NCBI RefSeq assembly: GCF_910592395.1
Contig: NC_088310.1
Coordinates: 9,801,501-9,865,500 of the forward strand
Direction: 5' to 3'
Source: Lineus longissimus
Taxonomy: Eukaryota > Nemertea > Pilidiophora > Heteronemertea > Lineidae
Length of the DNA: 64,000 nucleotides
This document shows, in pieces, positions 1,918 through 14,100 of the stretch. A program made the position numbers and the translations under genes. How positions within the stretch are numbered: the stretch's first letter is position 1; every line of letters begins with the position of its first letter. Below the pieces are notes generated by a model. That model was not told the DNA's origin. It worked only from the letters and a program-made list of their open reading frames with translations, and ran no database searches.

Positions 1918-2145
1918 TTAGAATGGGCCCAAGTCGGTTGTACTAGACATGCTCCTAAGACTAGTTCGACTGCCGTGAAATGAAAATTGTTCAAAGTAGG
2001 GCATGTCTTCTTGAATCGGCTCTAGGGCCTCCGACATTGATGATTTACCCGGAGGCGTCAACTGTACCCGATCGTGGGCAAACTCCTCAGGAATGTACGT
2101 TGTATCGGCCGGCGACGTGACATCAGGAATCCAAGGTGGGGTAAG
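1918..2145 (-). CDS. AKT: AKT distal alternative terminal exon (75-residue tail)
   Basis: An acceptor (CTGCAG) precedes an in-frame 225-nt coding stretch ending in TAA at 1920-1918. The tail starts [10 protein letters not shown], keeps a turn motif QLTPPG (Thr452 by the shared numbering) and a hydrophobic motif YFEQFSF (Ser477), and ends DLGPF. It matches the proximal terminal exon position by position over the first 33 residues (14 identities), then both carry PYFE-x-FS-aromatic-HG. It starts in phase 0, as the last shared exon requires. It differs at normally conserved tail positions: PPF-K-P becomes PWIP, and RYFDEEF of human AKT becomes TYIPEEF. Too short and split to stand out as an open frame starting at ATG. 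Either a mutually exclusive alternative terminal exon or a recently silenced duplicate; intact frame, splice site and motifs favour the former. Confidence 0.87.
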   Translation of the reverse strand, partial: LTPPWIPDVTSPADTTYIPEEFAHDRVQLTPPGKSSMSEALEPIQEDMPYFEQFSFHGSRTSLRSMSSTTDLGPF

Positions 2146-11100: not shown

Positions 11101-14100
11101 CGGTGGCGCCACCGTGGTAGGAAAATGTCTCAAAATACGGCAACTCCTCTTCACTAACATCTAACAGCTGACCTTGACCTGGCGGAGTCAATTCGACGCT
11201 CTCGCCGGTGAACACTTCATCAAAGTATCGTACATCCAATTCGTTTTTTACGCCAGGCTTGAAGGGCGGTGGGATCTAATTGAAGCATAGGAGGGGCAAA
11301 AGAACATGTTAGGAGAGATATAGTAAAAACCGACATGACGGAAAGAGTGTTACTGTGTTGATATAACCCCATTGAATGCTTTTTAGAAATCAATATCATC
11401 GGACTTTCAATATTTGTGACTAAAAAACTGAAATAGCAGTAGATGAATTCTCTTCAAAACCTTATTCTCTTCAAATCAAACATTAGTCCAGAAACCGCTG
11501 AAGTTGAATTAATGGTATGAATAAATTATGACTCAATTTTCATTTTTTAGACAAAATAGCTGATCAGGGCTAAAAAAAAATGTACATGTATATATGTATG
11601 GTTATATGTATGTGTGTGAAGTGCATCAGTGCTGACAACATGAATTTTACATAGGAAGATCAAAACTTTTTGCAAAACAGGCATCTAAAAAGACTCTGTG
11701 ACCATGACACCCACAAAGAAAAAACACTATACATGTGGCCAATATGTAACCTTTTTCACCATGTCAACACCCACAATAACACAGTATAGTTTGTTATTCA
11801 AGCCTGTCACATGATATAGGCAAAGCGTTGAAGACAGCTGGTACAGAACAAAATTTATTGACAAGTTTCGGCCAACAAACTCGACAAAGAAATTAGCAAA
11901 CGTTCTACATGTTCTACAGTGTATTTTGATAATGGTCTGCCCCCAACAAAATACCTAATGACACCGATTATTGATATATTGACAGATTTATATTCAAAAT
12001 CTTTCGGAATGAGTGAGGACCATACAAAAAACAAACAGAGAATCAGCCCCTGAACTTAGAATTTTTTTACTACGCCATCCTGAAACTGGTGTCAAAATCT
12101 TATTGACCGAATAAAAACAGTGTCAGGTGACATCATACAAAACCAAAGCCTCCACAGCCTGCTGTGGACTTGCAATTTTTATGGTTGAGAGGTGCAATAT
12201 ATATCGCTGTGATAGAGATATTGCTAGTCTGTGGATGTCCCACTTTGATATGTAGCACACACTACAGCGATAAATGCTCTTTGTCTGTCACAGGCACTAG
12301 CAAATGATCCAGTACAATCGACTGATTTTGAACGAGTTCAAGAACAAAATGGATGCCAATTTCAAGGGCGGGAGTCTGTTTTTTGTTTCTGGAGAACAGC
12401 CTCTCAGGTTTTAAAGGGGCAGACACTTCATTTTAAAGGCATTTTAATTGCTTTTAATAGGATTTTAAGTTCTTGCCAAAATGGTGGCACCTATGCCAGT
12501 GTCTTTGATGTCCTGTAGGCTAACCAGACATGGTTGTGTCAAAAGTCCAAGTTGATGACAGGTATCTACCACAGGCTACCAAGCCCTGCTACCAAACTCA
12601 TACGAGCTGGCGTGCAACAATTATTCCATAGTGTCGGACTTATCTTTCAGGAGTGTACAATGAAGTTCTCTGGTTCTCAGGTACTTATCTCCAGGATAGG
12701 ACTGGTGGTTACAACATCGTTGAGACAGAAAGCATTCCAGTAAACAACAAAATTACGAAGAACATTCATGAAATATTAAACAGAAATGGCAAGAGTTTCT
12801 ACATAACCCTCGACACGTATCAAAGAGTGAAATACATTCTTTGAGTTTGTTCATGTCGAACATTACAGTCATAACAATCATACGTCTTAGTGCAATCGAC
12901 AAGCGTAATCAAGAATTACTAAAGACTTTTTTTAAAATTCTTGATATCATGCATTACTACTGACATGTAATTGCAATGGACAAGCGTAATCAACAATTAC
13001 TAAAGACTAGTCTTTTAAAATTCTTGATATCATGCATTACTACTATTAACATGTAATTGTAAAAGCATAACGAATTGGTCGTAAGTTCATTGCATTTCAA
13101 GAACACAGTTTGTCAAGCTGTACTCAAATTTAAATGTTAAAAAAGACTTTCGATGTGAGCATTATATCGAACCTAAATACACGACCTTCAGGACGTAACG
13201 TAGTGTACGACGTCAGATTTCAACACAGCGCTACGAATGCCGCCATTATGATGTCAAAACATCAAGCATGCGTCGTCAGCTGGTTGGCAAACACGTTTTT
13301 GCAAGTCATTTCCAGTAGCTTTGGGATCCAAACTTGACAAGATCAGCTTGATGGAACTGGCGGAAAATTCTACGGAGTAAAGAATTCGGACAACTCTATC
13401 AATGCGCGAGGTCTAGTCAAGTTTGGACAATCCAAAGCGAGTTACCAGCAACCTTCAGCACCAAGCCAAGATGAGTGAAGCTTGAAAGCTCTGAATTACT
13501 AATGACACCAGGCAAGTTAATAAAGATGATTCCTTTCTATTCAAAGTTTCATAAATTAGCTAAATCTGCTCAAGGTACTTATGTTTCACGTTTTTACTAC
13601 AGAACATACATGTAACCTCCTTTGGGATAGACCCCAATTAGGATAGACCAAAATATGTTTATCTCGAAACTATACCCTCTACTAGTTGAGGTACAAATCT
13701 ATTCTTTAGACTGGAGACAGATGGTTTAAATAAGACATTGAACTCCAACAAATCTCTAAATACATGGAAAAGGAATTCAAGTCAACATGCACTTTTGAAC
13801 AAATTTGACTATGCTCGATAGCCAGTCTCCTTTATAGTCCAAAGGATGACAATATGTGACCCGTCACAGCAAAACCAGGCGCATGTCGCACAGAAGATGA
13901 GCCTAAATGACACCAGGAGATAATGGAAGAAATTGATGTGCTCATATTTCACAAAAGGCAGACAACAGAGAAATTAATTAACAGTCCGTCTCAACCTGCC
14001 AAGCTCAGAGCGACATGCGCCAGCTTTTGCTGTGACGGTCACATATTTGATGCTAGTCACCCTACATGAACTTGCCGCCGAGTAAGAAGTGCACAGCAGA

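Follow-up and report, generated by a model that had tools for sequence, protein, structure and literature searches.

An AKT gene of the nemertean Lineus longissimus with two alternative last exons, each encoding a tail with turn and hydrophobic motifs

Introduction

Does a single AKT gene encode two complete regulatory tails? The question is raised by a stretch of 64,000 nucleotides of the Lineus longissimus genome (contig NC_088310.1, positions 9,801,501 to 9,865,500), hereafter the window, in whose coordinates all positions are given. A first-pass annotation of the window had claimed an AKT gene with two terminal exons, a proximal and a distal one, whose products we call tail A and tail B. 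Our analysis makes it probable that one Lineus AKT gene has two alternative last exons, and that tail B is an old tail with an altered TOR interaction motif (TIM) and an altered tether to the adenine pocket. This reading is based on the anatomy of the gene, its reading frames, an identical isoform at NCBI, the occurrence of tail B in other phyla and the motif differences between the tails, all of which we observed.

Known genes with alternative C-terminal ends provide a standard of comparison. A passage of PMC7703976 describes the isoforms PKC-beta I and II as products of one gene (PRKCB), with a shared body and two alternative final exons that each carry turn and hydrophobic motifs. The same passage describes alternative ends of human AKT1-3 that lack the hydrophobic motif, and an AKT2-13a exon that shows no evolutionary conservation.

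Results

One AKT gene with two last exons

The gene lies on the minus strand and consists of ten shared coding exons followed by either of two last exons (Table 1). All introns are GT-AG, and both spliced chains are in frame, giving proteins of 503 residues with tail A and 497 residues with tail B. The exons 11275-11030 and 2145-1918 read as claimed: each is preceded by an AG acceptor, begins in phase 0, joins in frame to the GT donor after position 15781, and encodes both a turn and a hydrophobic motif. As in PKC-beta, there are thus two terminal exons in frame with one body, each with the two motifs. Isoform B has a PH domain (PF00169, E 1.1e-17) followed by an AGC kinase domain (PF00069, E 3.7e-75), the order that defines AKT/PKB, and the PDK1 activation-loop site is present in exon 8 according to the alignment to AKT2. 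The best match in the PDB is human AKT2 (8q61) for both isoforms, over residues 20-481 of isoform B (E 3.4e-201) and residues 20-477 of isoform A (E 1.5e-204). The gene is therefore an AKT by its other features, and tail B is a variant tail.

Table 1. Coding exons of the Lineus AKT gene and candidate poly(A) signals.
Feature	Position	Strand	Remarks
AKT coding exon 1	35260..35350	-	start Met; donor gtattagc; N-terminus identical to P0003
AKT coding exon 2 (PH domain)	34694..34819	-	PH PF00169 at residues 22-119
AKT coding exon 3 (PH domain)	27400..27511	-	
AKT coding exon 4 (PH end, linker)	25432..25546	-	
AKT coding exon 5 (kinase Gly-rich loop, catalytic Lys)	24577..24708	-	Pkinase PF00069 at residues 155-410
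AKT coding exon 6 (kinase)	24103..24168	-	
AKT coding exon 7 (kinase, YRDIK)	23574..23765	-	
AKT coding exon 8 (DFG, activation loop)	17557..17685	-	
AKT coding exon 9 (kinase C-lobe)	16334..16548	-	
AKT coding exon 10, last shared exon	15781..15868	-	ends DLVEKK; donor gtaggt
Tail A last exon	11030..11275	-	81 residues and stop; PPFKP, YFDEVFT (F-x3-F-T), LTPP turn motif, YFETFSY hydrophobic motif; acceptor ends TAG
Candidate poly(A) signal ATTAAA	10789..10794	-	236 bases past tail A stop; pattern match only
Tail B last exon	1918..2145	-	75 residues and stop; PPWIP, YIPEEFA, LTPP turn motif, YFEQFSF hydrophobic motif, HGSR segment; acceptor ends CAG; 100% identical to P0003
Candidate poly(A) signal ATTAAA	1689..1694	-	224 bases past tail B stop; pattern match only

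The two tails are related. Counted by eye on the translations, 14 of the first 33 residues are identical, the number that had been given before, and identity over the whole tails reaches 29 of 70 aligned positions. The alignment scores 131.5, compared with a maximum of 35.5 among 2000 shuffles of tail B, so the likeness goes beyond chance and a fortuitous resemblance is ruled out. Each tail alone passes the cut-off of the Pfam Pkinase_C profile (20.9 bits), with 35.6 bits for tail A and 22.4 bits for tail B. Within the whole B isoform the match falls to 17.7 bits, below the cut-off, a sign of the distance of tail B from the usual tail. Tail B is not the end of another AGC kinase such as PKC, S6K or SGK, as its significant matches in the PDB are to AKT only: the best are AKT1 and AKT2 (best E 2.6e-7), and the next AGC kinase, MRCK-beta, has an E-value of 1.

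We considered whether tail B could stem from a second AKT gene further downstream, and rejected this within the window. In a tblastn search of both isoforms against the 64 kb, each of the ten upstream coding exons matched once and two tails were found, and all other matches had E-values of 0.63 or worse. There is hence no other copy of a kinase or PH exon, and the NCBI entry described below (P0003) joins tail B to the same body. No third tail exon was found in the window by tblastn or by a six-frame motif scan; tblastn is the stronger of these screens, the motif scan being weak enough that its first pattern missed tail A itself.

Choice between the last exons

The first-pass annotation spoke of mutually exclusive splicing with shared PH and kinase domains. 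The shared body is borne out, but the exons are not mutually exclusive internal exons: tails A and B are encoded by alternative last exons, i.e., the choice is one of splice acceptor and poly(A) site. Candidate poly(A) signals follow both stops (Table 1). The one past tail A is the nearest of 19 matches to A(A/T)TAAA in the stretch that separates the tail B exon from the stop of tail A, and the one past tail B is the nearer of two matches up to the end of the window. The acceptor is CAG in all of exons 2-10 (9/9) and in tail B, and TAG in tail A. This would fit two competing exons, with the less common type of acceptor on the nearer of them, although it proves nothing.

The tail B exon starts 8.9 kb beyond the tail A stop. 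About 470 bases upstream of its acceptor on the gene strand lies a perfect 51-base inverted repeat (2615-2665 and 2739-2789, with a spacer of 73 bases), which could be the hairpin of a mobile element or could affect the choice of exon. Two minisatellites also lie between the last exons, at 4193-4560 (16 copies of 23 bp, 97% matches) and 9923-10708 (25.5 copies of 31 bp, 73% matches).

The tail B isoform at NCBI and in other species

The body with tail B is identical to an NCBI protein of 497 residues (P0003), 'RAC-beta serine/threonine-protein kinase A-like isoform X2 [Lineus longissimus]', whose cluster has two member sequences on one contig of 29 Mb. The tail B isoform had therefore already been predicted and its sequence is public. 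The label X2 implies at least one further predicted isoform of the gene.

We looked for tail B in a protein database clustered at 90%, where tail A isoforms may be hidden inside clusters such as that of Littorina. Residues 416-497 of isoform B (tail B and seven shared residues) retrieved five proteins at E ≤ 10 among 26 candidates, and the tail region of one of the tail B proteins, P0004, retrieved eight, itself included, at E ≤ 0.001 among 43 candidates. Together the searches gave nine proteins with tail B, i.e., P0003 and eight others. The four named relatives of P0003 belong to Nemertea, Mollusca and Platyhelminthes: Tubulanus polymorphus, a nemertean of a class other than that of Lineus (entry without isoform label); the snail Littorina saxatilis (P0006, 'isoform X4', from a cluster of eight members on one contig); the trematode Calicophoron daubneyi; and the monogenean Cichlidogyrus casuarinus (P0011, partial and joined to unrelated sequence). 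In P0011 an N-terminal part that Pfam matches to oxidoreductases is fused to the end of an AKT kinase, tail B included, which likely reflects a misassembled or mispredicted gene. The relatives are AKT proteins, with whole-chain identities to P0003 of 61-72% in the seven of seven that were aligned; P0011 was left out because it is partly non-kinase. Judged from these sequences, tail B occurs in other spiralian phyla too and is no peculiarity of the Lineus gene. The claim of a single AKT gene with two full-motif tails is thus upheld by the gene model, by P0003 and by the presence of tail B in other phyla.

These data bear on the idea that exon duplication left the distal exon as a relic without expression, which we regard as very improbable. 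The exon lies far from the tail A stop and is known here from sequence, yet its frame is open, its CAG acceptor and all motifs of the class are kept, the NCBI isoform is identical and relatives occur in three phyla.

The motif signature of tail B

We counted motifs in the nine B tails, in Lineus tail A and in human AKT1 and AKT2. The TP of the turn motif and the F[ST][FY] of the hydrophobic motif are present in all of them. Under the stricter form F..F[ST][YF], which both Lineus tails match, eight of the nine B tails remain, the exception being Cichlidogyrus. Other positions set the B tails apart. They all have PPW and YIP[ED]EF, where tail A, AKT1 and AKT2 have PPF and YF-x3-FT. The residue after YIP[ED]EF is A, A, A, D, K, L, L, L or S and never Thr (0/9). 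The usual AKT pair of PPF-x-P and YFDxxFT is thus found in tail A and is absent from Lineus tail B and its eight relatives (8/8). All nine B tails carry a GS(S)R segment, which the three other tails lack, and seven of the nine end in F or Y. A Ser four residues after the Ser of the hydrophobic motif is shared by all nine B tails, AKT1 and AKT2, and is missing from tail A. The counts characterise a class of tails and not an unbiased sample, the nine having been gathered by their likeness to tail B. The letters PWIP and TYIPEEF had been read correctly from the distal exon before; their meaning, the loss of F-x3-F-T, which is the most telling of the differences, had not been named, and the differing kinase control that was proposed from them is a matter of inference.

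The age of tail B

Identity to Lineus tail B is 47/75 in Tubulanus, 44/73 in P0004, 41/75 in Littorina and 33/69, the lowest of the eight, in Cichlidogyrus. A tree of 12 tails unites the B tails with a support of 91/94 (94/95 under LG+G4, a simpler model). A clade made only of Lineus tails A and B is rejected by the approximately unbiased test (p-AU 0.013, and 0.015 under LG+G4). When the tail of the fly is added, the B group keeps a support of 85/93, the rejection of the Lineus pair weakens to p 0.048, and Lineus tail A adjoins the B group, apart from the fly (86/83). Such a position would be expected of a duplication that postdates the divergence from arthropods. When the columns of the signature are masked, the support of the B group declines to 47/70, and the test does not reject a clade of the two Lineus tails (p-AU 0.129); the case for an old origin of tail B therefore rests largely on the shared signature.

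The masked tree leaves some room for a recent duplication within the nemertean lineage, with the likeness to the tails of other species arising by convergence, and the two Lineus tails do share the string PYFExFSxHG. Such an origin nevertheless seems highly unlikely to us, if slightly less so than an unexpressed relic. Lineus tail B is closer to the other eight B tails (33/69 to 47/75) than to Lineus tail A (29/70), and the test with all columns rejects the Lineus pair, with p values that range over 0.013-0.048 according to model and rows. The best reading of these sequences is that tail B would be an old, separately kept tail type of nemerteans, a snail and flatworms.

Other features of the window

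Rfam at gathering scores and ARAGORN gave nothing in the window. A minisatellite of 37 bp at 16574-17441 (23.5 copies, 95% matches) stops 25 bases short of the beginning of AKT exon 9, and a fragment on the minus strand inside an AKT intron (21361-21702) matches PF13842 zf-Tnp_2, a transposase-type zinc finger (E 1.5e-8). Arrays of 49 bp are repeated within a larger unit at 48045-49959. Long open frames (up to 399 codons) overlap the arrays of 66/81 bp at 51318-53843 and look repeat-derived. Acidic, serine-rich open frames lie on the minus strand at 31193-31456 and 60121-60372; neither has a Pfam match at E ≤ 0.1, and each may belong to another gene as an exon.

Discussion

Relative to known systems, what is new in this locus is a second full-motif AKT tail that is common to several phyla, and PKC-beta I/II has the same design. 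Like PKC-beta, the Lineus locus is an AGC kinase gene with a common body and two full-motif last exons. Unlike it, the gene is an AKT, with a PH domain and regulation by PI3K, and its tail B loses the F-x3-F-T element, which both PKC-beta tails keep (NFDKEFT and NFDRFFT). The alternative 3' ends of human AKT1/2/3, e.g., AKT2-13a, likewise derive alternative C-terminal sequence from alternative 3' exons, but lose the hydrophobic motif, whereas both Lineus tails are complete and tail B occurs across phyla. The first-pass statement that no AKT gene with two full-motif tails had been described agrees with what the passage of PMC7703976 says of AKT, although the same passage gives this arrangement for PKC-beta. 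Among the papers listed in our literature search, no title dealt with two full-motif AKT tails, a result that covers titles and does not show absence from print, and the search found no paper with both 'Akt' and 'Lineus longissimus'.

What might the second tail do? The TIM consists of F-x3-F and the Thr directly after it, and its first Phe reaches the adenine pocket. With these limits the TIM is intact in tail A and absent from tail B. Splicing of exon 10 to the proximal exon would give the canonical tail A, and skipping of that exon and its poly(A) site would give tail B. The hydrophobic motif of tail B may still dock on the N-lobe of the kinase, so that AKT with this tail could still be activated through PI3K and PDK1. 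Since tail B has neither the first Phe nor the Thr of the TIM, such an AKT might mature or respond with less, or different, dependence on mTORC2. Contacts in the nucleotide pocket may also be altered, since the TIM overlaps the Phe that reaches it, and the conserved GSR segment is a potential regulatory site. We infer every such biochemical consequence, as well as the balance of expression between the tails. PMC12721161 states that AKT and PKC share the phosphorylation by mTORC2 of the TIM and the turn motif, and suggests, citing Baffi et al. 2021, that this enables PDK1 phosphorylation and then autophosphorylation of the hydrophobic motif.

Besides the masked tree and the tree with the fly, several points weigh against an old tail B with altered TIM and tether. 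The tail B isoform is known here from our gene model and the NCBI entry, whose X2 label is an automatic prediction. The signature is shared partly by construction, through the way the nine tails were gathered. With tail A as the query, no protein reached E ≤ 0.001 among 49 candidates, which speaks against any easy confirmation of both tails in other species. An AlphaFold model of P0003, built on an alignment of eight sequences, had a mean predicted local distance difference test (pLDDT) score of 42; it was unusable and was discarded. The limits of the TIM and the adenine-pocket role of its first Phe are taken as background, and we found no mention of the pocket residues F438/F442 in three papers on AKT (PMC12638386, PMC8379990 and PMC12724016).

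The empty tail A search, together with the Tubulanus entry that has tail B without an isoform label, could also mean that tail B is the main spiralian AKT tail, and that tail A is a minor or relic exon with no regulated choice in most tissues. We find this unlikely. Tail A is intact and is closer to human AKT1 than tail B is (46.2 vs 34.3 bits to 6buu), which suggests constraint; the X2 label of P0003 implies another predicted isoform, and clustering at 90% may have hidden others with tail A. That tail B was found in nine of nine proteins says little, tail B having been the query.

A more serious alternative, though still one that we rather doubt, is that both tails are expressed and are nearly equivalent, as has been reported for PKC-beta I and II, differing only in 3' untranslated region, expression pattern or turnover while the motif differences are tolerated. 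Both Lineus tails do have turn and hydrophobic motifs. However, PKC-beta I and II themselves differ in Ca2+ affinity according to the passage of PMC7703976, and PPW, IP and the non-Thr residue are kept in 9/9 B tails (the named ones from three phyla), which suggests constraint, albeit in nine tails selected by their similarity to tail B.

We thus retain the reading of one AKT gene with two alternative last exons and an old tail B with altered TIM and tether. A broader proposal may be put forward tentatively, at somewhat less than even confidence: Spiralia may retain a second AKT, encoded by a single gene through alternative last exons, in which the turn and hydrophobic sites are kept and the F-x3-F-T recognised by mTORC2 is lost, so that AKT activation would be separated from TIM-dependent control by mTORC2, in an arrangement conserved since before the split of nemerteans, molluscs and flatworms. 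If this is true, an AKT isoform with turn and hydrophobic motifs but without a TIM would offer a ready-made natural case in which these two are separated. A further suggestion would be that the output of AKT is divided by splicing in some animal phyla, and by three genes in vertebrates.
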